Below are positions 37,638 to 55,338 of a stretch of 55,479 nt of DNA, one piece after another. A model generated the notes under the pieces. That model saw only the letters and a program-made list of their open reading frames with translations, had not been told where the DNA came from and did no database searches. The stretch is from Methanosarcina sp. KYL-1 (GTDB lineage: Archaea > Halobacteriota > Methanosarcinia > Methanosarcinales > Methanosarcinaceae), in contig NZ_VOUA01000025.1 of NCBI RefSeq assembly GCF_024372725.1, positions 1 through 55,479 on the forward strand. The letters are read 5' to 3'. Each line of letters begins with the position of its first letter. The stretch's first letter is position 1. A program made the translations under genes and the position numbers.

Positions 37638-40600
37638 ATGGGCTCGGAAAAAAAAGTTAATTCGATTGCTAATTCCTTCATTTTATTAAGCCTTATCTTA
37701 GTGGTAGTCTCGGCTGCAGGTCCTCTGCCTGCCGGGGCCATTTCAATCCAGGGACTGGTCACAGACGATACTCTGGAGGACGGTGGGGCCCCCCCAACTC
37801 TCGGGGAAGTACTTGCGCAGAATCCGACTTCTTTTGAAGGCCTGATAAGCAAGGGCAATACTTTGTATTCTCTAGGGGAATACAAGCTTTCCATCGAATG
37901 TTATGAAAAGGCCCTTGATATAAACCCTGATTCTTCCCTCGCCTGGTATTCCAGGGGGCGTTCTATGGAAGAGCTGGGAATGTACAGTGATTCTATTGAC
38001 TGTTACACCTGGGCTCTTGAAACTTTTCCGGCTTCTTCTGAGAGCTGGTATGAAAGGGGAGATGAACTGTTAGGGTCTCTGAATTATCTTGAAGCGGTGA
38101 ATTGTTACGAGAAGGGTCTTGCTACGGACTCCTATCTTGCCGAACTCTGGTTCCGAAAAGGCCAGGCGCTTGAAAAGATGGGTTCGGACCAGTCGGCTTT
38201 GCTCTCCTATGAAAAGTCAATTGAGTATGGTTCAAATTGTTCGAAAGCCCTCTATATGCAGGGGCAGGCCTATGCAGGGCTCGAAAAATATGATGAAGCA
38301 ATGATATGCTTTGATAGGGCCCTGAATATCTCTCCTGGAGATTCCGCAATCTGGTATCAGAAGGGGCTGGTTTTCGATAAACTTCAAAATTACGAGGCTG
38401 CCGTAGATTGTTATGAGCAGGTTATTTCCATCAACCCGGACTCGGTTGAGGCCTGGTATAGCAAAGGTGAGGACCTTGAAAGGCTGGGGCTATATGGGGA
38501 TGCGTTAACCTGTTATGACTTTGTGCTACTCTCGGAGCCGGATAACCTCGGAGCCCTTCAGAGGAAAGGTTCCGGGCTCGAGCAACTTGGCAGGTATGCT
38601 GATGCGCTTCAGTGTTACGATAAAATTCTTACGTATGATCCCGACAACTCCGATGCCTGGCACAGCAAAGGTTCCGTGCTTAACAAGATGGGGCAGTATG
38701 ATGCTGCTATTGAGTGCTATGACAGGGCCCTTAACCCCGGTGTCGGAGTCGAGATAGAAGAGGCAGGAGATGCCCTGCTCAATAAATTGAACGCCTACGA
38801 TGCTTCGCTGGCAAGTTACTCCGAAACACCAGATCTCAGGTCGGAGTCTGTTAAGATCTGGTACGACAAGGGCCTGGCTTTCGATAAGCTCGAAAACTAC
38901 GAGACTGCTCTGGACTGTTACAGCAGGGTCCTTGAAGAAGAACCCGAGCATGCAGTGGTCTGGTACAGGAAAGCTCTGGACCTTGACGGGCTTGGGAGAT
39001 ACGGGGAGGCAGCTGAATGCTACGATAAAGCCCTGAAGCTGGATTCGGGTTATGCTAAAGTCTGGTTCAGGAAGGGCTTTGATTACGCAAGTCTCGGGAA
39101 ATACAGGGAAGCGGTGAAAAGCTATGATAAAGCTCTTGCCCTGGATGAAAACTATACCCTTGCGTGGTACAGCAAAGGAGTCGCCCTGACAAAACTCGAA
39201 AATTACGAGGATTCAATTGAGTGTTATGACCAGGTCCTTGCCTTTGCCCCGGAGAGCGCAGAGATCTGGTACAATAAGGGCCTTGCCTTGGATCAGCTTG
39301 GAAGATATGAGGAAGCTGCAGAGTGCTACAACAGGGCTCTTCAGCTCAGACCAGGGTATGCCCCCGCAAGTTTCAAACTTAAGGAGGCCCTGAAGCTTTC
39401 AGATTCCGAAGTTTCAGTCCTCTTGAAAGGAGATAATGCCGGCGTCAATCCTAAAGGGGCGCTTGCTAGCGGGTTCTGGTCTTACCTTCTCAGCTATGAA
39501 AAATTGGACTCAAAAACGTATAACCCGGGTTTCAGCCCCAAAAGTATTGAACTCCTTAACCCTGGGTTCAGTTCTGACTCGGCCTGGTACGGGAAAGCTT
39601 CAGTCAGCAGAAAACTGGGAATGAATGCGGATGCTCTCAAAGCTTATGAAATGGTCCTCTTGATCAATCCGGAGCTTACGGAGGCATGGTATGAGAAAGG
39701 TTCCATTCTGGACAAGCTCGGCAGGAATGCGGAAGCCCTGGAGTCTTATAAGAAGGCGGTGGCTCTTGACCCGCAGTCCAGCATTGCCTGGTACGGAATG
39801 GCTTCGAGTGTCAACAACCTTGGGCGGTCCGAAGAGGCGGTAACTTACTTTAACAGGGTGCTTGAGCTCGATCCGCAAAATGCTGGAGCCCTTTACGGGA
39901 AAGGTCTGGCCCTTTCAACCCTGGGAAGGTCCGAAGAGGCGGTCTCCTGCTATGATCAGCTCCTGGAGCTTGAACCGACAAATCCGAAGGCTCTGAAAAA
40001 CAGGGCTCTGGTCCTCGTAAAACTTGGAAGGCTCGAAGGGGCACTGGCTGATTATGATAATCTCCTGAAGGTCGAACCTGCAAATGCTGCAGTCCTGGCT
40101 GAAAAAGCCTCCATTCTTGAAGGGCTTGGCAGGTATGAAGAAGCTGTTGCAAGCTATGATGGCATCCTGAAGACCGCTCCAGGCAACAGGGAGGTCATCT
40201 ACAGGAAAGGCAAGGCTCTGGAGAAACTCGGAGATTTCGAGGCAGCAATCGGCTGTTACGATAAGATTTTGGAGCTGGACCCGGCAAATATCGATTCCCA
40301 AAACAGCAAGGGCTTTGCCCTCTACAAGCTTAAGAAGTATCAGGAAGCCATTGCCTGTTATGATAAGACCCTGCAGTATGCTCCAAATAATGCCGCAGCC
40401 TGGTACTTCAAGGGGTGCGTTTACTATACGATAAGCAGCCACAACGCTGCTCTGGACTGCTTTACAAAGGCTAGCCAGTTAAAACCCACCAGCATCACTG
40501 CCTGGTATAACATGGGCTATATCTACAACGTAATGGGAGATGCCGAGACAGCTATAGAGTGCTATAACAGGGCTCTTACAATAAATCCCAACTCGGTTTC

Positions 40601-40955
40601 AGTCCTTTATAACAAGCGTTTTGCCCTCTATCTCACGAAGAAATTCGATGATGCGTCGGCGTGCAAGACAAAGCTGGATTCCCTTGATCCGGGCTTTGTG
40701 GATGCCCTTGAGGACAGGGGAACAAAGGTTTTCCTTCCCGACACTTACAGGGGTGACCTGGACTACACCCTCCCTACCAGGTGGTATGGGGGTCCAGAAA
40801 ATCAAACTGGGAACCCTGGTGAGAATGAGGCAGCAGGCTCCCAGCAGTCCGGGAACATTCCAGAACCTCTTGATAGGGAAGTTCGCGACACCGGGTACAT
40901 CCCCGAGCCCGATGAAGATGTGAATGACGAATGGTACATCCCCGAAGCTCAATGA
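37638..40955 (+). CDS. Large exported TPR-repeat protein
   Basis: The 1105-residue protein begins with a hydrophobic signal or anchor (ILLSLILVVVSAAGPLPAGA) and then consists of about 25 or more tetratricopeptide repeats. Each 34-residue unit has the pattern WYxKGxxLxxLGxYxEAxxCYDKAL. The run is broken near residues 575-640 by a non-TPR segment (SVLLKGDNAGVNPKGALASG). After the last repeats (about 1030) a Gly/Asn/Glu-rich tail follows, with a WYIPEAQ ending. TPR arrays form superhelical scaffolds that bind other proteins, here probably outside the cell or at its surface. The ATG at 37638 is followed by polar residues and then the hydrophobic stretch. A strong hairpin terminator follows at 41032-41075, so it is probably a single-gene transcript. 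Confidence 0.88.
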   Translation: MGSEKKVNSIANSFILLSLILVVVSAAGPLPAGAISIQGLVTDDTLEDGGAPPTLGEVLAQNPTSFEGLISKGNTLYSLGEYKLSIECYEKALDINPDSSLAWYSRGRSMEELGMYSDSIDCYTWALETFPASSESWYERGDELLGSLNYLEAVNCYEKGLATDSYLAELWFRKGQALEKMGSDQSALLSYEKSIEYGSNCSKALYMQGQAYAGLEKYDEAMICFDRALNISPGDSAIWYQKGLVFDKLQNYEAAVDCYEQVISINPDSVEAWYSKGEDLERLGLYGDALTCYDFVLLSEPDNLGALQRKGSGLEQLGRYADALQCYDKILTYDPDNSDAWHSKGSVLNKMGQYDAAIECYDRALNPGVGVEIEEAGDALLNKLNAYDASLASYSETPDLRSESVKIWYDKGLAFDKLENYETALDCYSRVLEEEPEHAVVWYRKALDLDGLGRYGEAAECYDKALKLDSGYAKVWFRKGFDYASLGKYREAVKSYDKALALDENYTLAWYSKGVALTKLENYEDSIECYDQVLAFAPESAEIWYNKGLALDQLGRYEEAAECYNRALQLRPGYAPASFKLKEALKLSDSEVSVLLKGDNAGVNPKGALASGFWSYLLSYEKLDSKTYNPGFSPKSIELLNPGFSSDSAWYGKASVSRKLGMNADALKAYEMVLLINPELTEAWYEKGSILDKLGRNAEALESYKKAVALDPQSSIAWYGMASSVNNLGRSEEAVTYFNRVLELDPQNAGALYGKGLALSTLGRSEEAVSCYDQLLELEPTNPKALKNRALVLVKLGRLEGALADYDNLLKVEPANAAVLAEKASILEGLGRYEEAVASYDGILKTAPGNREVIYRKGKALEKLGDFEAAIGCYDKILELDPANIDSQNSKGFALYKLKKYQEAIACYDKTLQYAPNNAAAWYFKGCVYYTISSHNAALDCFTKASQLKPTSITAWYNMGYIYNVMGDAETAIECYNRALTINPNSVSVLYNKRFALYLTKKFDDASACKTKLDSLDPGFVDALEDRGTKVFLPDTYRGDLDYTLPTRWYGGPENQTGNPGENEAAGSQQSGNIPEPLDREVRDTGYIPEPDEDVNDEWYIPEAQ

Positions 40956-44581: not shown

Positions 44582-45007
44582 TTAGCCTGTTTTTTCCTGG
44601 GCGTTTTCCTTACCTTCTTCTCCCTCTTTTCTTGCCCTGTTTTTATGCAGGGCCATCTCGATGTTGCTGTGCAGGTCTTCTTCCTTGAAGGGTTTTGAGA
44701 TATAGCCTGAAGGTTCGGTCATTTTTGCCCTTTCCAGGGTTTCGCTGTCCGTATAGGCGGTGAGATACAGGACCGGAATTCCGAAGCGGGATTTTATCTC
44801 ACGGGCTGCTTCGATCCCGTCCATATCGCCTTTCAGCATGATGTCCATCAAAACCAGGTCCGAGCCCGTAAGTTCTGTTTTCCTTATAGCTTCCTCCCCT
44901 GAAGCTGCGGTGCTCGGGACGGTATACCCGAGATTCATTAACTTATTTCTTATATTCAGGGCTACTATGTTCTGGTCCTCCACGACCAGAATCTTTGCTT
45001 TTTCCAT
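44582..45007 (-). CDS. Stand-alone response regulator receiver, copy 1
   Basis: The 141-residue protein is a CheY-like receiver alone, with no output domain. The acidic pocket is in VVEDQN (Glu10, Asp11), the phosphorylated residue is Asp55 (LMDIMLKGD), Thr83 (LYLTAYT) and Lys105 (ISKPFKEED) complete the switch. A charged tail of about 20 residues follows. It is nearly identical to the receiver at 48497-48898 through most of its length. It lies 139 bp downstream of the 1088-residue kinase and is presumably its partner. Signals probably pass by protein contact. Confidence 0.92.
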   Translation of the reverse strand: MEKAKILVVEDQNIVALNIRNKLMNLGYTVPSTAASGEEAIRKTELTGSDLVLMDIMLKGDMDGIEAAREIKSRFGIPVLYLTAYTDSETLERAKMTEPSGYISKPFKEEDLHSNIEMALHKNRARKEGEEGKENAQEKTG

Positions 45008-45145: not shown

Positions 45146-48100
45146 TTAGATGCTTTCCCTGAACCGTATCACAAATCTGGTACCTGGTTTTTTCTCAAGC
45201 TCAATATACCCTTCAATCTGTTCAACCAGGGTATTTACAAGCTGCAGGCCCAGTGAGGCCGTATTCTTGAAATCTATGCTTTCCGGAAAACCCAACCCGT
45301 TATCCGATACAACCAGTGAAAACTGAGCTGCTTTATTACGATCCTCATTTTTATTAATTTTTCTGCTGTCAGCCCTATTTTCCTCCCCTACCTGCCCCGT
45401 CTTGCGGAGTTCTATACGGATTTCTCCTCCCCCATCAGGGAAAGCATGTTTCAGGGAATTGGAAATAAGCTCGTTGACTATAATTCCCAGGGGGATTGCG
45501 GTGTCCATCCCCAGGTGGGCCGCCTCAAGGTCCAGTTCCAGGCTTACCTCCTCATTCGCCACCGGGTACGACCTGAGAAGTTCTGAGGTCAGTTTCCGCA
45601 GGTAGGCCGCAAAATCCAGGGTATCGATTTCGCTACCTTTGTAGAGTTCCTCGTGGATGAGGGCCATGGATATAACGCGGTTCTGGCTTTCCTGGAAAGC
45701 CTCGAGCACGTCCCTGTCCACGAACGTTTCCGCCTGGAGGCTCAGCAGTGACGAGATCACCTGCAGGTTGTTCTTGATCCTGTGGTGGATTTCCTTTTTG
45801 CGGATTTTCTCGGTCCTTTCCAGGGCTTCTTCGGCTACTTTTCGCTCTGTGATATCGTGAATCGAACCCTGAAAATACGTGGGTCTGGCAGAGGGGTCCG
45901 GGACGTTCTGGATAACTTCCCTTACCCACCTTATCTCGCCGTCCTTTCTGCGTATCCGGTACTCCAGTTCGGTAAAGAGCTCCGGGTCGGACTTAAGTTT
46001 CCTCCTTTTCTCAAGAATCAGCGGGAGGTCTTCAGGATTCACAAGATCGGTCCATTCCAGGTTTCCGGAAAGGAATTCTTCCCTGGAATATCCTGTGATT
46101 TCTTCCGCAGCTCCGTGCATAAATCTCGGTACGAAGTCCCCGTCAAGCTGGAATCCGATTCCCCGGAAGTTTTGCATGAATGAATGGAGACATTCTTCGC
46201 TCCTCTGCACTTTTTCCACGGCAAGTTTCCGCTCGGTTATATCTTTTTTCACTCCCAGTATCCTGTGGATGCGCCCTTGCTCAGCCTTAAATGCGATTGC
46301 GTTATCTTCCAGATATATGTAGTCCCCGTTATTCTTTATAAAGCGGTACACTTCATGGAATTCCTTTCCTTTTTTGAAGGTTTCTTCCATTGCGGATCTC
46401 ACTCTTTCCCTGTCTTCGGGATGCACGTATTCGTACCAGCTGTCCAGGTTTAATTTCTGGAATTCAAGTATGTGGGCAATGTCTTCCCTGCGAATTCCTG
46501 CCCAGTCAATAGTATCCGCGTCCAGGTCATAATCAAAGACCATCTGGCCGGTCTGCTCTGCAACCAGGCGATAGCGCTCTTCGCTTTTTCTCACGGTTTC
46601 CTGGGCCCGCTTGTGTTCCGTAATATCAAACATTACCCCTAAGATTCCTTTTTTGTTCCCATTCACGTCTGTATACGGGGCTTTGTTGACGAGAAAGTCC
46701 CTGGTCCCCTGGGTGGCGCATTTCAATTTGGCTTCATAACGCTGGGTCTTTTCCTGTCTCAGCAGTTTCAGGTCGTATTCTTCGTGAACGCGGATCAGCT
46801 CTTCAGGCATCTCTTTAAAAAGCTCATTAAGGGTTTGTCCGACTATCTGTTCTTTCGGAACCCCGACAATCTCCCTGGAGAACTCTTCGTTGCATATCCT
46901 GTATTTGCTTTCGCCGTCCTTGTAAAAAACGGGGGTTGGTATGGCATCGAGCAGTTTTTCCAGGAAATACAGGTTATCCCTTAGCTTTTTTTCTGCCTGT
47001 TTGAGTCCGCTTATGTCCTGCATGACGCAGAGCAGTCCGGTAATCTCACCGTTACTGTCTCCGAATGTTGATTTATTTATAAGGAAGTCTCGGGTTTTTC
47101 CATCGGCACAGATGTGTCTGCGTTCAAAAATGCGGGTTTCCCCTTTCATGAGCATTTCCTGCTCTTCCCTATGGATTTTCCTGGAATTTTCAAGGAGAAA
47201 CTCCATGTTGTATTCGGGGCACTTTTTGAGAATTTCAGGGGCAGCCCTTTCCGTAACTTCCTGGGATGTAAAGCCCAGGATGTCTCCTTTTGGAAGTCCC
47301 ACAATCTGTTTGAAAAAATGTTCGTTACAGTCTTTAAAGACCCCATTTTTATCTTTGTAATATATGGGATTGGGCATCGAATTGAGCAGCTTTTTCAACA
47401 ATTCTAAGTTACCTTGCAGTGTTTTCTCTGCATTTTTTCTTTCGGCAATTTCCTGGAAAAGCCTTTCATTTGTTGCAGTAAGTTCCCTGGTCCTTTCCTC
47501 TACCAGTTTCTCCATCCACCTATCATGGAGCCTCAGTTCCTCTTCGGCTTTTCGGCGTTCAATCGTTTCCCCAATTAAAAAAGCCACGGAGCTCAGGAAA
47601 AATACGTCTTCTTCAGAAAAGTCCTTCTTCTTTGTGGAGTGCGCCCCGATCACCCCGAAGGTTTTTTCCCTGCCTCCTATGCTGACACTCATCCCGCTGA
47701 CAGGGGGGTGATCCGTGACGAAGCCGGTTTTTTTGAAACGTTTTTCCGTTCTCATGTCTTCTACAACGACAGGTTTCCCGCAAAGCACTGTATACCCTGC
47801 CTGGGAGTCCGCTCCCCCTTCTGCGACTCCCTTTCCTACAAGCCCTTCATCCGGGCCGAACGCTGCCCTGAGCAGGAAATTTCCATCGGGCAGGAATTCC
47901 AGGATTTTGCAGGACTCGACTTCCATAGTCCGGGCAACCAGCCGCATGCTTTCATTCATCAGCGCCTGGAGGCTTTTGCATGAAAGGGTAATTTCTCCCA
48001 GCCTTTTGAGAACAGTATACTGTTTTTCCCTTACAAGCAGACGTTTTTCGAGCTCTTTTCGGCTGCTTATGTCATATCCGTAGATGTTTACGCAGCCTTC

Positions 48101-48412
48101 CTCAGGCAGGGGATACATTGTGGCCAGGTACGTTCTGCCTTCGGCTTCCAGCTCAAGTTCTTCACTATACCCCAGAATTAACGCTTTTTGAACCTGGTTT
48201 TCAATATCTAACGGGACTTTTTCCCCTTCCGGGAGCTTCCATTTCTCAAGTAAAGGATAAGCGGCGCTGTTTGCATAGAGCAACTTCCCATCTTTCCCCA
48301 CACTGAGTACGGGATTCGGGTTCTTTGAGGGAAAAAACTCCAGAAATCTTTCTTCCCCCTGCTTTCCATCGCCCTCAATGGCTTCTGGTTCTGAAATCCC
48401 AGCCAGGTCCAC
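45146..48412 (-). CDS. Multi-PAS/GAF sensor histidine kinase, copy 1
   Basis: The 1088-residue protein has no clear membrane segment and is probably soluble. From the N-terminus: a PAS domain (about 25-115), a GAF domain (about 140-285), a coiled coil, two PAS domains opening FLEKLL (about 335-585), a PAS of the 129-residue type (about 595-720, ERYRLVAEQTGQMVFDYD) and a further PAS (725-850). The HisKA_2 phosphoacceptor is in KKEIHHRIKNNLQVISSLL (about 875). The ATPase has NELISNSLKHA and DNGLGFPE. The start is a GTG at 48412 after GGTGG. It follows the receiver at 48497-48898 by 84 bp and precedes the receiver at 44582. Confidence 0.92.
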   Translation of the reverse strand: MDLAGISEPEAIEGDGKQGEERFLEFFPSKNPNPVLSVGKDGKLLYANSAAYPLLEKWKLPEGEKVPLDIENQVQKALILGYSEELELEAEGRTYLATMYPLPEEGCVNIYGYDISSRKELEKRLLVREKQYTVLKRLGEITLSCKSLQALMNESMRLVARTMEVESCKILEFLPDGNFLLRAAFGPDEGLVGKGVAEGGADSQAGYTVLCGKPVVVEDMRTEKRFKKTGFVTDHPPVSGMSVSIGGREKTFGVIGAHSTKKKDFSEEDVFFLSSVAFLIGETIERRKAEEELRLHDRWMEKLVEERTRELTATNERLFQEIAERKNAEKTLQGNLELLKKLLNSMPNPIYYKDKNGVFKDCNEHFFKQIVGLPKGDILGFTSQEVTERAAPEILKKCPEYNMEFLLENSRKIHREEQEMLMKGETRIFERRHICADGKTRDFLINKSTFGDSNGEITGLLCVMQDISGLKQAEKKLRDNLYFLEKLLDAIPTPVFYKDGESKYRICNEEFSREIVGVPKEQIVGQTLNELFKEMPEELIRVHEEYDLKLLRQEKTQRYEAKLKCATQGTRDFLVNKAPYTDVNGNKKGILGVMFDITEHKRAQETVRKSEERYRLVAEQTGQMVFDYDLDADTIDWAGIRREDIAHILEFQKLNLDSWYEYVHPEDRERVRSAMEETFKKGKEFHEVYRFIKNNGDYIYLEDNAIAFKAEQGRIHRILGVKKDITERKLAVEKVQRSEECLHSFMQNFRGIGFQLDGDFVPRFMHGAAEEITGYSREEFLSGNLEWTDLVNPEDLPLILEKRRKLKSDPELFTELEYRIRRKDGEIRWVREVIQNVPDPSARPTYFQGSIHDITERKVAEEALERTEKIRKKEIHHRIKNNLQVISSLLSLQAETFVDRDVLEAFQESQNRVISMALIHEELYKGSEIDTLDFAAYLRKLTSELLRSYPVANEEVSLELDLEAAHLGMDTAIPLGIIVNELISNSLKHAFPDGGGEIRIELRKTGQVGEENRADSRKINKNEDRNKAAQFSLVVSDNGLGFPESIDFKNTASLGLQLVNTLVEQIEGYIELEKKPGTRFVIRFRESI

Positions 48413-48496: not shown

Positions 48497-48898
48497 TTAC
48501 TCAATTTCGTCTTCTTCTCTTTCAGCCCTGTATTTGTGCAGTGCCATCTCGATGTTGCTGTGCAGGTCTTCCTCTTTGAAGGGTTTGGAGATATAGCCTG
48601 CGGGTTCGGTCATTTTCGCCCTCTCCAGGGTTTCATCGTCCGTGTAAGCGGTGAGGTAAAGGATTGGGGTCCCAAAACGGGCTTTAATCTCTTTTGCGGC
48701 TTCTATCCCGTCTATGTCCCCTTTCAACATGATATCCATCAAAACAAGGTCCGCACCAGTCAGCTCTGCTTTCCTTATGGCTTCTTCTCCGGTGGATGCG
48801 GTAGCCGGTACGGTATAGCCTAGGTTTTTCAGTTTATTTCTGATATTAAGAGCTACAATGTTCTGGTCCTCAACAACCAGAATTTTTGCTTTTTTCAT
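48497..48898 (-). CDS. Stand-alone response regulator receiver, copy 2
   Basis: The 133-residue protein is a CheY-like receiver closely matching the one at 44582-45007: same Asp55, Thr83 and Lys105, and the same opening (KAKILVVEDQNIVALNIRNKL). It differs mainly at the charged tail. It lies 137 bp after the 1900-residue kinase and 84 bp before the 1088-residue kinase, so it is probably co-transcribed. Having no output domain, it may pass signals to other proteins or act as a phosphate sink. Confidence 0.92.
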   Translation of the reverse strand: MKKAKILVVEDQNIVALNIRNKLKNLGYTVPATASTGEEAIRKAELTGADLVLMDIMLKGDIDGIEAAKEIKARFGTPILYLTAYTDDETLERAKMTEPAGYISKPFKEEDLHSNIEMALHKYRAEREEDEIE

Positions 48899-49035: not shown

Positions 49036-52000
49036 TTATTCGGTTTCCGTGAAACTGATCCTGAATACAGTTCCTCCGTTTCTCTCCATTTCGATTGTAG
49101 CCTCCAGCTGTTCCACAAGGGTATTTACGAGCTGCAGGCCCAGAGAATCGGTATTCTTGAAGTTGATGTTTTCAGGAAAACCCAACCCATTGTCTGAAAC
49201 GACCAGTGTATAAAGGTAACTTTTGTTAATTAAACTCCCTTTATCCTTATTACTTGTGATCTTACTTATATTTTTATTTTCACTGATCTCCTCCCTGCAG
49301 AGTTTTATCTGGATTTCCCCTTTCCTGCTTGCAGGGAAAGCGTGCTTAAGGGAATTGGAGACAAGCTCGTTGATAATGATCCCTAACGGGATTGCCGTAT
49401 CCATTCCCAGGAATGTCTCTTCCAGCTCCAGGTTCAGCTTTACGTCCTCTTTCCTGACCGTATAAGAGCGGAGAAGGTCCGAAGTCAGTTTCCGGAGATA
49501 AGCTGAAAAATCAAGAGTCTCGGTGTCTCCTGCCCTGTACAGTTCTTCGTGGATAATTGCCATGGACGCCACGCGGTTCTGGCTTTCCCTGAATGCCTCT
49601 ACCACCTTTTCCTCTCTGAACTGGTCAGCTTGCAGTTCAAGGAGGCTGGATATTACCTGGAGGTTGTTTTTTATCCGGTGGTGTATCTCTTTCTTGCGGA
49701 TCTCCTCGGTCCTTGCAAGGGCTTCTTCTGCTTCCTTTCTTTCGGTGATGTCATAGATTGAGCCCTGCACAAACAAGGGTTTTCCGGAAGAATCGGAAAT
49801 GTTCTGTATGATCTCATTGACCCATCGAAGCTTTCCGTCCCTGTGCCTTATCCGGTATTCCCGGTTAATGATTGTTCCAGGGATGTTTTTAAGTTTCTCG
49901 GCGTCTTCAAGGATACGCGGCCTGTACTCTTCATCCACAATCCTGTCCCAGCGCACTTTTCCGGAAAGAAATTCTTCTTCGCAGTACCCGGTTATTTCTT
50001 TTAGGAGGCCCTGCGCAAAAATCGGATCAAAGTCCGTAGTCTCCTGGAATGCAATTCCTTTGAAGTTTTGTATAAATGAACGGTACTTCTCTTCGCTTTC
50101 CCTTACTTTTTCAAGGGAGTGTTTGATCTGTGTAATGTCTCTATTTGCCCCGAGCATCCTGTGTATGCAGCCCTTTTCATCCTTCAGGAATACTCCCCTG
50201 TTTTCCACATAAATATAGTTCCCGTCCTTCCTTTTGATCCTGTATTCTTCACAGTACCTTTCTCCTGTCTCCAGGCACTTTTGATATGACTCGGTTGTTC
50301 TTTTGCGGTCATCCGGGTGTAAGAGCTCTTTCCAGTCCTCCAGACTGCTTATATTTTTAAATTCTTCTTCCCCGTAATTCGTAAGCTCTTTGATAGCTCC
50401 TGCCCAGCCTATTTTATCTTCCAGAACGTCATAGTCGTATACCAGTTGCCCTGTCTGCTCGGCAACGATGCGGAAACGTTCTTCGCTTATCTGCAATTCT
50501 TCCGTTCCTCTCTTTCTCTCGGTGATATCTTTTATCACTCCGATCAGCCGGTATACTCTGCTCTTTTTATCTCTCAAATAAGTCCCGCAGTCTTCCACGT
50601 AAATGTAGTTTCCGGACTTTCTTTTGAACCTGTATTCCTGGCAGTAACTTCCCCCGTTCTTAAGGGCATTTCCAAAATATGTTATCGCTTTTTTATAGTC
50701 TTCAGGGTGGATGTGCTCTTTCCAGAGCTCACCGGTCGTAAGCTTATGGATTTCCTCATGAGTGTAACCGGTAATATCCTCAATGGCCCCTGCCCATTTC
50801 ACATGGTCCGAACCGATGTTAAAATCGTATACTAGCTGGCCGGTCTTCTCTGCCGCTATGCGGAACCTTTCTTCGCTTTCCTGAAGTTTTTCCGCGGCAA
50901 GCTTTATGGGAGTGATGTCTTTTATTACCCCTACGGCCTTGCGGATCTTCCCCTCTCCGTTTCTCAGGTATATCCCGCTGTCTTCTACCTGGAAATAGTT
51001 CCCGCCCTTTCTCCTGAACCTGTATTCCACACGGAAGTGGCTGTCTTTTTCCCGGGATTTTTTGAGTTCTGCAAGAGTCTTTTCCCGGTCTTCGGGGTGG
51101 ACATGCTCAATCCACATTTTGCTGTCGAATTCCCGGAATTCTTCAACGCTGTAACCGGTAATTTCGGTGATAGCTCCTGACCAGGTAAGCACGTTATTCA
51201 CGTGGTCGTGTTCAAAGACAATCTGGCCTGTCTGCTCGGCAGCGACCCTGAAGCGTTCCTCGCTTTCCGCAAGTTTCTTCTGGGCAAGCTTCTTCTCTAC
51301 AATGTCTTTGATAACTCCAAGTGCCTTGCATACTTTTCCGTTTTCGTCTTTAAGGTAGACTCCCTCATCTTCCACGATGAGATAGCTTCCGTCTGCCTTT
51401 TTGAGTCTGTACTCTTCGAAGAAATCTCCCCCGTCTTTTCTGCAGCGTTCATGTGATGCCGTCACCCTTTCCTGGTCTTCGGGATGGATCAACCCAAGCC
51501 AGCCATTGGCGGTGATTTTCTGGAATTCTTCTAAGCCGTATCCGGTAATTTCGGGGATTGCTCCCGCCCACCCAATTGTCCCGCTCTTATAGTCATCATG
51601 ATACAGGACCTGTCCGGTATGTTCTGCTATCAGGCGGTACCTTTCTTCACTTTTTTCAAGTTTTTCCCGGGCAAGTTTCTGTTCCGTTATATCCTTTATA
51701 ACCCCAAGCATCCTGTATATGCGGGCCTGTTCGTCTTTGAGGAAAATCCCTCTGTCTTCCACGTAGAAGTAAGTCCCGTCTTTTCTCCTGAGCCTGTATT
51801 CTTCATGGTACTTTTTCTCTTCTTCCAGGGCTCTGTAGTGGGCCTCTACCGCTCTCTTCCGGTCCTCAGGATGGATATGTTCGGTCCAGCATTCTAAATT
51901 GAAGTCTTCTAACTCTTCCCTACCGTATCCCGTAAGTTCCTCTATGGCTCCCGCCCAGTCGTTTCGGTTTGCCTCGATATCATAATCGTATACCATCTGC

Positions 52001-54738
52001 CCGGTCTGCTCGGCGGCAAGCCTGTACCTCTCTTCGCTTTTCTCTATTTTCTCCTGGGCCGTTTTTCTCTCCGTGATATCTTTCATCACCCCTAGGGCTC
52101 TATACACCTGCCCGTTTTCATTCTGAAGACAGACCCCGCTGTCTTCTACGTAAAAATAGCTCCCGTCTTTCCTGCGGAACCTGAACTCCTCTTTAAACCT
52201 TCCCCCTCTCTTCAAATACTCCTTTATATTTTTGACTACAGACTCACGATTTTCGGGATGTATGTGTTCTGCCCAGGTATCGGGGCTGAATTTCCGGAAC
52301 TCCTCATAACTGTACCCTGTAAGTTCCTTAATGGCTCCTGCCCAGTTAACTTCTCTTTTTTCCGGGCCATAATCATAAACAATCTGCCCTGTCTGTTCTG
52401 CGGCGACGCGATACCTTTCTTCACTTTTTTCAAGTTTTTCCAGGGCAAGTTTACGCTCCGTTATATCTTTTTTTACGCCAACGACCCTGTAAGGGCGTCC
52501 ACTTTCGTCTTTCAGGACTTTTCCGCTGTCTTCCACGTAGAAATATCTGCCGTCTTTCCTTCTGAACCTGAATATTTCGTGAATCTCATCCCCTGTCTCC
52601 AGGGACTTTGCTATACTTTCGACAACTTGTGGTCTTTCTTCGGGATGTATGTGTGAAATCCATTCATCTCTTCTGAATTTCTGGAATTCTTCTTTGCCGT
52701 ATCCCGTAATCTCTTCAATAGCTCCGGCCCAGTCGGTTATTCCGGTCTCGATTTCATAATCATAAACAATCTGCCCTGTTTGTTCGGCGGCGATACTGTA
52801 CCTTTCTTCACTTTTCTCAATTTTGTCCCGGGCAAGCTTTTTTTCAGTAATGTCTTTTATTGCGCCTAGCATCCGGTATACCCGGCCTTTTTCATCTTTC
52901 AGAAAAACTCCGGTGCTTTCCACATTAACGTATCTTCCGTCCTTTCTCAGCACCCGGTACTCCTGCTGGTACTTCTCTCCCTCTTTAAAGGCATGTTTAT
53001 AATACTCGATTGCCCTTTTCTTGTCTTCTGGATGGATAAGGGCTTCCCAGGTCCCCCTGGAAGAAATACTGGGGTCTCCATCTCCGTACCCTATGATCCC
53101 TTCAATTGCCCCTACCCAGGAAAGCCTGTCCCTTGCGACATCATAGTCATAGACCCCATGCCCGGTCTGTTCAGCAGTAAGGCGGAAGCGCTCCTCACTT
53201 TCTTTTATTTTTTCCATTGAAAGCTTTCTTTCGCTTATATCTTTTATTACTCCGGCAGTCCTGTAGACCTTCCCATCCTTATCTTTTATGTAAAATCCGT
53301 TGTCCTCTGCGTAGAAATAGCTGCCGTCTTTTCTTCTGAACCTGTACTCTTTATGGAAGTCTTCCCCTGCCTCCAGGCATTTTTTATAGGTTTCAACAGC
53401 CCTCTGGCGGTCCTCCGGATGGAGGTGTTCAGCCCAGACCTCAGGGGTAAATCCCTGGAACTCCCCATAACTGTATCCAGTCAGTTCTTCAATGGCACCT
53501 TCCCAGGAACTCTGTTTTGTCTTCAAATCATAATCATAAACAAGCTTGCCGGTCCTTTCTGCAACTGCCCGGAATCTTTCTTCACTTTTCTCCAGGATTT
53601 CCCTGGCTATTTTCCTTTCGCTTATATCTTTTATTACACCAATAATCCGGTTCATCTGACCTTTTTCATTTCGAAGGTACACGCTGCTGTCTTCCACATG
53701 GAAATAGTTCCCGTCCTTTCTCCTGAACCGGTATTCTTCAAGGTATTTCTCCCCTGTTCTCGTGCACCTTTCATGGGCTTCCCAGGCCCTTTCCCTGTCT
53801 TCGGGATGGATATGACCCCTCCAGCCTTCCAGGTCTACCTGCCTGAACTCTCCAGGGCTGTATCCGGTAAGCTCTTTGATTGCTCCCGCCCAGTCAATCT
53901 GTTTTGATTCTATGTCATAATCATATACAAGCTGCCCTGTCTGCTCTGCAGCAATGCGGTACCTTTCCTCGCTTTTCCGGAATATTTCTTCTGCTTTCTT
54001 GCGCTGGGTTATGTCCAGCATCACGCCTGCAATCCAGTTCACGTTTCCGGAACAGTCTTTATACGTGGCTTTGTGGAGAAGGAAGTCTCTTTTTACGCCA
54101 TCTGCACAGACCACCTTAATCTCGCAGTAGTGGCTTCCTCCCTGCTTGAGAAGCTCCCGGTCATGCAGCTGGTATATTTCTGCGAGTTCTTCCGGGATCT
54201 TTTTCTGAAACTCTGCAAAAGATCCTCCGATTACCTTTTCCTTCGGAAGTCCCATAATCTGGCTGGCAAAGGTCTTGTTACAGTTCAGGTAAATCCCGTT
54301 TTTGTCTCTCTGGAATACCGGGCTCGGGATGTCGTCAATCAGCGTTTCCAGAAAACTTACGGTATTTCGAAGGGATTCTTCCGTTCTCTTGCTCCGGGTT
54401 ATGTCAAACCCGTAGAAGTTTACGCATCCTTCCTCGGGAAGTGGGTGGATTGTTGCGGAGTAAATCCTTTTTCCTGCCGTAAGCTCCAGGTATTCAGGAT
54501 TTTTTTGGGCAAGTACTCTCAGGAAGCTGTGCCTCAGGGCTTGAGGGAGTTTTTCCTTTTCCCGGACTCCCCAGTGTTCCAGCAAAGGAAAAGCCGCCCT
54601 ATTGGCATAGATGATCGTACCATCCTTTTCCACTCTCAGGATCGGATTCGGATTATCGGAAGGAAACTGTCCAATTGATTCTTCATTTCCCTCCTTTTCG
54701 AGCTCTCTGCTGTCTTCGAAGTTTTTCGAGTCCCCCAT
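49036..54738 (-). CDS. Giant sensor kinase with ten tandem near-identical PAS units
   Basis: At 1900 residues it is far longer than usual sensor kinases. An N-terminal PAS (about 25-115) and a second PAS (about 125-250) are followed by ten tandem PAS_3-type units of about 129 residues (about 255-1545). Each opens KSEERYRxAAEQTGQxVYDYD, with DWAGAIxELTGY and HPEDR, then EYRFRRKDGxYFxVED and GVIKDITERK. A different PAS (about 1550-1670, SFIQNFKGIAFQ), the HisKA_2 helix KKEIHHRIKNNLQVISSLL (about 1685) and the ATPase with NELVSNSLKHA and DNGLGFPEN follow. The units presumably sense ligands, perhaps haem or redox, but no haem ligand is defined. No membrane segment is evident. The ATG at 54738 follows GTGAGG. 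It belongs to a two-module cluster with two receivers. Confidence 0.93.
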   Translation of the reverse strand: MGDSKNFEDSRELEKEGNEESIGQFPSDNPNPILRVEKDGTIIYANRAAFPLLEHWGVREKEKLPQALRHSFLRVLAQKNPEYLELTAGKRIYSATIHPLPEEGCVNFYGFDITRSKRTEESLRNTVSFLETLIDDIPSPVFQRDKNGIYLNCNKTFASQIMGLPKEKVIGGSFAEFQKKIPEELAEIYQLHDRELLKQGGSHYCEIKVVCADGVKRDFLLHKATYKDCSGNVNWIAGVMLDITQRKKAEEIFRKSEERYRIAAEQTGQLVYDYDIESKQIDWAGAIKELTGYSPGEFRQVDLEGWRGHIHPEDRERAWEAHERCTRTGEKYLEEYRFRRKDGNYFHVEDSSVYLRNEKGQMNRIIGVIKDISERKIAREILEKSEERFRAVAERTGKLVYDYDLKTKQSSWEGAIEELTGYSYGEFQGFTPEVWAEHLHPEDRQRAVETYKKCLEAGEDFHKEYRFRRKDGSYFYAEDNGFYIKDKDGKVYRTAGVIKDISERKLSMEKIKESEERFRLTAEQTGHGVYDYDVARDRLSWVGAIEGIIGYGDGDPSISSRGTWEALIHPEDKKRAIEYYKHAFKEGEKYQQEYRVLRKDGRYVNVESTGVFLKDEKGRVYRMLGAIKDITEKKLARDKIEKSEERYSIAAEQTGQIVYDYEIETGITDWAGAIEEITGYGKEEFQKFRRDEWISHIHPEERPQVVESIAKSLETGDEIHEIFRFRRKDGRYFYVEDSGKVLKDESGRPYRVVGVKKDITERKLALEKLEKSEERYRVAAEQTGQIVYDYGPEKREVNWAGAIKELTGYSYEEFRKFSPDTWAEHIHPENRESVVKNIKEYLKRGGRFKEEFRFRRKDGSYFYVEDSGVCLQNENGQVYRALGVMKDITERKTAQEKIEKSEERYRLAAEQTGQMVYDYDIEANRNDWAGAIEELTGYGREELEDFNLECWTEHIHPEDRKRAVEAHYRALEEEKKYHEEYRLRRKDGTYFYVEDRGIFLKDEQARIYRMLGVIKDITEQKLAREKLEKSEERYRLIAEHTGQVLYHDDYKSGTIGWAGAIPEITGYGLEEFQKITANGWLGLIHPEDQERVTASHERCRKDGGDFFEEYRLKKADGSYLIVEDEGVYLKDENGKVCKALGVIKDIVEKKLAQKKLAESEERFRVAAEQTGQIVFEHDHVNNVLTWSGAITEITGYSVEEFREFDSKMWIEHVHPEDREKTLAELKKSREKDSHFRVEYRFRRKGGNYFQVEDSGIYLRNGEGKIRKAVGVIKDITPIKLAAEKLQESEERFRIAAEKTGQLVYDFNIGSDHVKWAGAIEDITGYTHEEIHKLTTGELWKEHIHPEDYKKAITYFGNALKNGGSYCQEYRFKRKSGNYIYVEDCGTYLRDKKSRVYRLIGVIKDITERKRGTEELQISEERFRIVAEQTGQLVYDYDVLEDKIGWAGAIKELTNYGEEEFKNISSLEDWKELLHPDDRKRTTESYQKCLETGERYCEEYRIKRKDGNYIYVENRGVFLKDEKGCIHRMLGANRDITQIKHSLEKVRESEEKYRSFIQNFKGIAFQETTDFDPIFAQGLLKEITGYCEEEFLSGKVRWDRIVDEEYRPRILEDAEKLKNIPGTIINREYRIRHRDGKLRWVNEIIQNISDSSGKPLFVQGSIYDITERKEAEEALARTEEIRKKEIHHRIKNNLQVISSLLELQADQFREEKVVEAFRESQNRVASMAIIHEELYRAGDTETLDFSAYLRKLTSDLLRSYTVRKEDVKLNLELEETFLGMDTAIPLGIIINELVSNSLKHAFPASRKGEIQIKLCREEISENKNISKITSNKDKGSLINKSYLYTLVVSDNGLGFPENINFKNTDSLGLQLVNTLVEQLEATIEMERNGGTVFRISFTETE

Positions 54739-55338
54739 TTTTCCTCACTTTTCTGCTTTTGTCCCTTTTCTTTGTGGAAACGAGCCCTTTTGCCCTCTGC
54801 CCAGAATCTTCGGCTAAAATTAGTTTATACAGGATTGCTTCATTTCACCGTTAATATCATTTGTTTGATACTCCCGGAAACCCTTCATTTAAAAATGTAC
54901 ACATTTGCCCGTTATGCATCCATCATTTAAAAAAGTATATGATGTGTATCGAATTTTTATATAATTTCTGGATATTACTGTTCAAGCCAGGGGGAGTGGT
55001 TTATTAACTCTTCATTCGTTTCTCATAGTTGGCCTTAAAAGCTGAGCTCCATTTTTTAAATCTCATGTTCTTCCAAAAAAGGATTCGAGCTAATTATGTG
55101 AGACAAGCCTAAGTTAGTCCAATGTTACACGGTTGGTGTTTTGAGTAGAAAAAAATAATGGCCGGTTCGAAATCTTGAATTTTGCCCCATACAACCGTAA
55201 TTATTCATATCGCCTCGTTTTAAATTCCACCTTCGTACGTTTTGGAATACACTATCAGCTGACTTATAAGAAACCATTCTGCCTCAATAAAAAGAAACAA
55301 TATTCAACAAAGAATATAGCAGATAAATTAGGGAAAAG
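54739..55338. promoter_or_regulatory. Upstream region of the giant kinase
   Basis: No gene is supported. AT-rich sequence with TATA-like elements lies at about 54935-54970 (minus-strand TTATATAAAAATTCG), which could drive the kinase with a leader of about 200 nt. The remainder to 55338 shows no clear structure. Confidence 0.4.

Follow-up and report, generated by a model that had tools for sequence, protein, structure and literature searches.

Some kinases carry many PAS domains, and why they do so is the question raised by a gene of Methanosarcina sp. KYL-1. The window, i.e., the whole 55,479-nt stretch of DNA analysed here, is the entire contig G000:C25 of a 4.04-Mb draft genome (66 contigs). 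The original prediction saw in it a sensor kinase with ten consecutive, near-identical copies of a 129-residue PAS unit produced by serial duplication. What are these units, how did the array arise, and what might it do for the kinase?

The kinase and its domains

A single open frame on the reverse strand (49036-54738) codes for a PAS-array protein of 1900 aa. HisKA_2 scores 108.4 bits against a Pfam cut-off of 22.3 and HATPase_c 32.8 bits against a cut-off of 26.4; the phosphoacceptor His (HHRIKNN, aa 1686) and the N and G boxes (NELVSNS, DNGLGFP, SLGLQLV) are present. Judged by its sequence, the protein is a HisKA_2 histidine kinase with all catalytic boxes intact. No transmembrane segment is predicted in its 1900 residues (the highest 19-residue hydropathy is 1.36). 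PAS_3 (PF08447) matches eleven stretches at 66-95 bits (cut-off 25.6), corresponding to the ten units and an eleventh PAS. Altogether the kinase has thirteen PAS-like domains, ten of them from one subfamily (slot letters are those of the unit trees, see below):

49036..54738 (-), PAS-array histidine kinase, 1900 aa (ORF, domain profiles, hydropathy)
54403..54657 (-), N-terminal PAS-like region, aa 28-112, PAS_8-like (weak profile stretch and sequence)
53998..54336 (-), PAS_4 domain, aa 135-247 (domain profile)
53587..53973 (-), unit 1, slot A, from aa 256 (unit alignment and unit tree)
53200..53586 (-), unit 2, slot B, from aa 385 (unit alignment and tree)
52813..53199 (-), unit 3, slot C, from aa 514 (unit alignment and tree)
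52426..52812 (-), unit 4, slot D, from aa 643 (unit alignment and tree)
52039..52425 (-), unit 5, slot E, from aa 772 (unit alignment and tree)
51652..52038 (-), unit 6, slot X, from aa 901, clusters with another kinase's unit and with no array slot (identity and tree)
51265..51651 (-), unit 7, slot F, from aa 1030 (unit alignment and tree)
50878..51264 (-), unit 8, slot G, from aa 1159 (unit alignment and tree)
50488..50877 (-), unit 9, slot H, from aa 1288, 130 aa (unit alignment and tree)
50098..50487 (-), unit 10, slot I, from aa 1418, 130 aa (unit alignment and tree)
49711..50097 (-), eleventh PAS, PAS_3-type but of another kind, aa 1548-1676, adjoins the kinase module (alignment and profile)
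49462..49689 (-), HisKA_2 with the HHRIKNN phosphoacceptor box at aa 1686 (profile and sequence)
49048..49392 (-), HATPase_c with NELVSNS, DNGLGFP and SLGLQLV boxes (profile and sequence)

Divergence of the ten units

The count of ten consecutive units was right: each scores 187-209 bits against the unit profile, whereas the next PAS reaches 45 bits and is of a different type. The length of 129 residues holds for eight units, while two have 130. Alignment at the DNA and protein level, which had been proposed as a check, shows the units to be more alike (pairwise protein identity 38-63%, DNA 56-69%) than any of them is to the eleventh PAS (23-33% protein identity). The motifs ascribed to all units are valid as a consensus, but the full versions occur in only three to five units (ER[YF]RxAAEQTGQ in 4/10, YDYD in 5/10, DWAGAI in 3/10, HPEDR in 4/10); only W-x-G-A-I and H-P-[ED] are common to all ten.

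The claim of near-identity has to be given up. Agreement between units at four-fold degenerate third positions is about 10-60%, mostly 30-50%, which is near the chance level and little above the ~0.3 expected from composition, and Tandem Repeats Finder did not detect the ten-unit array. Together with the unit identities, this rules out near-identical repeats. The longest exact match between any two units is 25 bp. The low identity, the near-chance four-fold sites and this short shared stretch indicate that the duplications are old, so frequent recombination at the array is unlikely, as is assembly collapse.

A misjoined repeat might be suspected in a draft assembly of 66 contigs, and the homologous array in the MAG G039 is indeed split between two contigs. 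However, no exact match between units exceeds 25 bp, and independent assemblies show these slots in a matching order, among them the single-contig genomes G010, G036 and G001 with 9, 8 and 6 units, respectively. An assembly artefact is thereby ruled out, its probability being close to nil.

Slot identity and the origin of unit 6

The ten-unit array is real and old, and its units are individually conserved as related but clearly different modules. Trees of the units (FastTree, n=158; IQ-TREE, n=155) cluster them by position and not by genome, giving slots A-I. Mean identity is about 78% within a slot across species and 49% between slots. Slots C, D, E, G, H and I form clades with UFBoot of 99-100; slot B has 100 and slot F (long and short kinases) 100. 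The slot order is A B C D E X F G H I in the window, A B C D' D E F G H I in L039, B C D' E F G H I in G036, A B D' D' F G H I in G038, A-I in G010 and G023, A B F G H I in G001 and A B F G in the four-unit short kinases of one clade. A four-unit ancestor A-B-F-G is only moderately supported by these comparisons, since the grouping of long and short slot A units has a node support of 23 in IQ-TREE and those of slot B form no clade there.

Unit 6 clusters (UFBoot 100) with the unit from a separate kinase that has only one. The relatives of unit 6 are in L072 of the host genome and in the 763-766-aa kinase located directly upstream of the long kinase in G036-G039. Unit 6 is 70-72% identical to the single-unit-kinase unit and at most 64% identical to other units. 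At least one unit, then, did not come from local tandem duplication, and purely local tandem duplication of one unit is ruled out. What stands of the serial duplication scheme is the spread of one PAS subfamily by duplication. We infer that unit 6 was exchanged between kinase genes. In the unit-X kinase of the host genome (L072:234-3104), the ATPase domain contains a low-complexity (KRGEG)n insert.

Positional identity kept across species and the short longest match make a freely recombining, homogenised array unlikely, and a dose counter of equal units as well. A counter or cooperative sensor in which equivalent units read one signal would agree with the single PAS subfamily and its common invariant core. 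However, about half of the residues differ between units, the slot-specific differences are conserved across species, and units of equal function would be predicted to homogenise; we therefore regard this explanation as improbable.

Distribution and copy number in relatives

Strong matches to the unit profile (E below 1e-35) were found in 36 of the 238 genomes of the class, belonging to 4 of its 39 genera. Comparison of related genomes, one per species, shows that copy number varies between species: across Methanosarcinaceae, the kinase family has 1 to 10 units. Most Methanosarcina genomes have a shorter family member with 1-4 units beside the receiver gene RR1 (see below), and a kinase of the array family adjoins RR1 in about 20 genomes. 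Also beside RR1 are the ten-unit kinases of the window and of L039 (BM5_bin.6, which seems to be identical with genome G037), the eight-unit kinases of G036 and G038, and the G039 kinase with at least nine units. The long kinases of G001, G010 and G023 are additional to an RR1-linked short kinase and share another locus, with MatE and PfkB neighbours; they have nine units in G010 and G023 and six in G001. If G001 is M. acetivorans, this species has one member with six units and another with three.

The family is valuable as a natural copy-number series with traceable slot identity (1, 2, 3, 4, 8 and 10 units at one locus, 9 and 6 elsewhere) and bears on the question why many PAS domains occur on some kinases. 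As the slots can be traced in a genus with genetics, a role as sensor, relay or spacer is directly testable by deleting or swapping units.

The long kinase of G039 has an in-frame TAG in unit A (L119:9750-9752), where L039 has Gln. Members of the Methanosarcina group can read UAG as pyrrolysine; read-through and a broken gene are both possible. Three neighbouring kinases in L070 of the host genome, with 2-3 unit-type PAS each, represent another local expansion. A plasmid search returned matches to generic PAS only, under 60% identity.

Constraint, geometry and cofactor motifs

Positional orthologues have a dN/dS of 0.14-0.44 in every unit and of 0.15-0.18 in the kinase, i.e., purifying selection acts on every slot about as strongly as on the kinase, or only a little less so. 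W28, G30-A31-I32, H56-P57, R82 and E94 are invariant or nearly so across all slots. The distance between W28 residues of adjacent units is 129 in 93 pairs and 130 in 8, the extra residue being located in a loop after unit position 46, outside the helix; indels among units are almost confined to one loop. From D116 to W28 there are 41 residues in 86 of 90 cases and 51 in four, the latter probably a pattern-matching effect (an earlier DI dipeptide), since the W-to-W spacing is unchanged. With such fixed 129/130-residue spacing, the connecting helix stays in register. In AlphaFold2 models the units adopt the PAS fold (mean pLDDT 87-89), and neighbouring units are joined by one continuous 23-residue helix.

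The solved folds closest to the unit model in Foldseek are 3h9w and 3mr0; for a two-unit model they are Brucella LOV-PAS, FixL and DosP. The LOV Cys motif NCRFLQ is absent from the 1900-aa sequence, so flavin (LOV) assignment has no support; a Cys at unit position 50 is found only in unit 6. Haem assignment lacks support as well: within FixL, only the first PAS is matched by the unit profile, and the invariant His56 is part of the common PAS_3 HPED motif, also seen in 3mr0, 3nja and 3h9w. An F-helix cysteine at unit position 70, which slots A, B, F and I have kept (66 of the 158 units), is a lead only, for thiol chemistry.

Most units might bind nothing and act as a mechanical spacer or scaffold, setting how far the kinase lies from the N-terminal PAS/PAS_4 sensors or how stiff the connection is. 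Copy number that ranges from 1 to 10 over a constant kinase module, the strictly fixed unit spacing and the want of a cofactor motif in the units would all suit this role. Against it, purifying selection near the kinase level maintains the sequence identity of each slot and the core residues are kept in all slots, while a pure spacer would be expected to homogenise or decay. We consider the spacer unlikely, and favour a multi-input relay column over both the spacer and the equal-unit counter.

Neighbouring genes and the proposed relay

Downstream of the kinase on the same strand follow, in this order, RR1, a second kinase and RR2:

48497..48898 (-), RR1, stand-alone receiver and probable partner of the kinase, whose gene is 137 bp away (profile and sequence)
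45146..48412 (-), second histidine kinase: PAS, GAF, two PAS_4, one unit-type PAS, HisKA_2 (domain profiles)
46205..46585 (-), single unit-type PAS of the second kinase, 144 bits (unit profile)
44582..45007 (-), RR2, second stand-alone receiver (profile and sequence)

RR1 scores 82.1 bits for REC, and its acidic pair, phospho-Asp, Thr and Lys are all present (VVEDQ, LMDIM, YLTAYTD, SKPF). The presumed kinase-RR1 partnership is not universal, as the long kinases of the M. acetivorans group have no RR1 neighbour. A 1105-aa protein made almost entirely of TPR repeats (37638-40955, at least 18 matched) shares the kinase neighbourhood in several species.

We find it fairly probable that the protein is a cytoplasmic multi-input HisKA_2 sensor with separately maintained slots, relaying through a PAS column to the kinase and RR1, and of four-unit origin. 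Its ten units of one lineage-specific PAS subfamily, each followed by a helix of fixed length, would form a column, probably a parallel dimer, on top of the different, kinase-proximal PAS. Conformational changes would pass along the helices to the kinase, which would phosphorylate the neighbouring RR1. Each slot would serve as a sensor or relay module that has diverged from the others and is maintained separately, perhaps with a ligand of its own. The array would have grown by old block duplications from a shorter ancestor, probably A-B-F-G, with unit 6 exchanged with another kinase gene and blocks lost or gained in relatives. The persistence of single-unit relatives limits this reading, implying that most units are dispensable for the gene's role there.

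Comparison with known kinases

Long PAS arrays on kinases are already known, and the window kinase is an unusually long example. Cyanobacterial histidine kinases have up to 19 PAS domains (UniProt A0A1Z4MZL8; Xing et al., 2023, PMC10468136) and share with it a very long array on one kinase; the window kinase has thirteen PAS-like domains, ten of them from one subfamily, and a slot history is not described in the available portion of that paper. Archaeal kinases are often cytoplasmic and multi-PAS, with no transmembrane segment and a HisKA/HATPase module, and REC-only regulators such as RR1 are typical of archaea, according to the accessible part of Galperin et al. (2018; PMC5847659). That part does not describe arrays of ten one-subfamily units in strict register. 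MsmS and RdmS of Methanosarcina acetivorans are kinases from the same genus that carry several PAS and GAF domains, but they have no phosphorylatable histidine and function without REC partners (PMC6944256), whereas the window kinase has HHRIKNN and an adjoining REC protein and is not of the MsmS/RdmS type. The tandem PAS of FixL and DosP (PDB 8js5, 9cmf) match the two-unit model in fold (TM ~0.63-0.68), with only about 20% identity. We found no description of a ten-PAS archaeal kinase in the open literature.

Transfer between species and the upstream region

Between the window and G001/G010/G023, the kinase C-terminus has pS of 0.29-0.32 (dS 0.37-0.42), compared with 0.60-0.71 (dS 1.2-2.2) for ThiI and three other window genes and 0.65-0.70 for RR1. 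Against a second genus (G037), pS is 0.44 for the kinase and 0.53-0.68 for other genes. The short kinases linked to RR1 have diverged from the window kinase to the extent usual for ordinary genes (pS 0.68-0.75), and codon bias therefore does not account for the low value of the long kinase. Synonymous divergence to the M. acetivorans group several-fold below that of other genes shows that the long kinase moved between species. The non-coding DNA in front of it points the same way:

54739..55123 (no strand), non-coding upstream DNA of the kinase, ~74-78% identical to the DNA in front of the G001, G010 and G023 long kinases
54878..54962 (-), conserved promoter-like element, ATCATATAC-TTTTTAAAT-ATG-GATACATAA, with a TATA-like core (upstream-sequence comparison)

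Over the 300-480 bp in front of the long kinase, extended alignment is obtained only with the M. acetivorans-group long copies (73-78%). As judged from these comparisons, the long gene was exchanged between species together with its upstream region. The TATA-centred element, about 45 bp long, is kept in front of long and short kinases alike (~20 homologues), which suggests shared regulation. One may also speculate, more tentatively than for the relay column, about a slot-coded multi-signal sensor: each position would read a different signal, the set would be edited by block gain or loss and unit exchange, and the gene with its promoter would spread as a one-gene cassette.

No RNA element was matched by Rfam in the window. 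The contig ends (55337-55479) in a perfect 16-bp tandem array, AGAAAACTTAGTGATT, of 8.9 copies (Tandem Repeats Finder), probably the point where the assembly broke.
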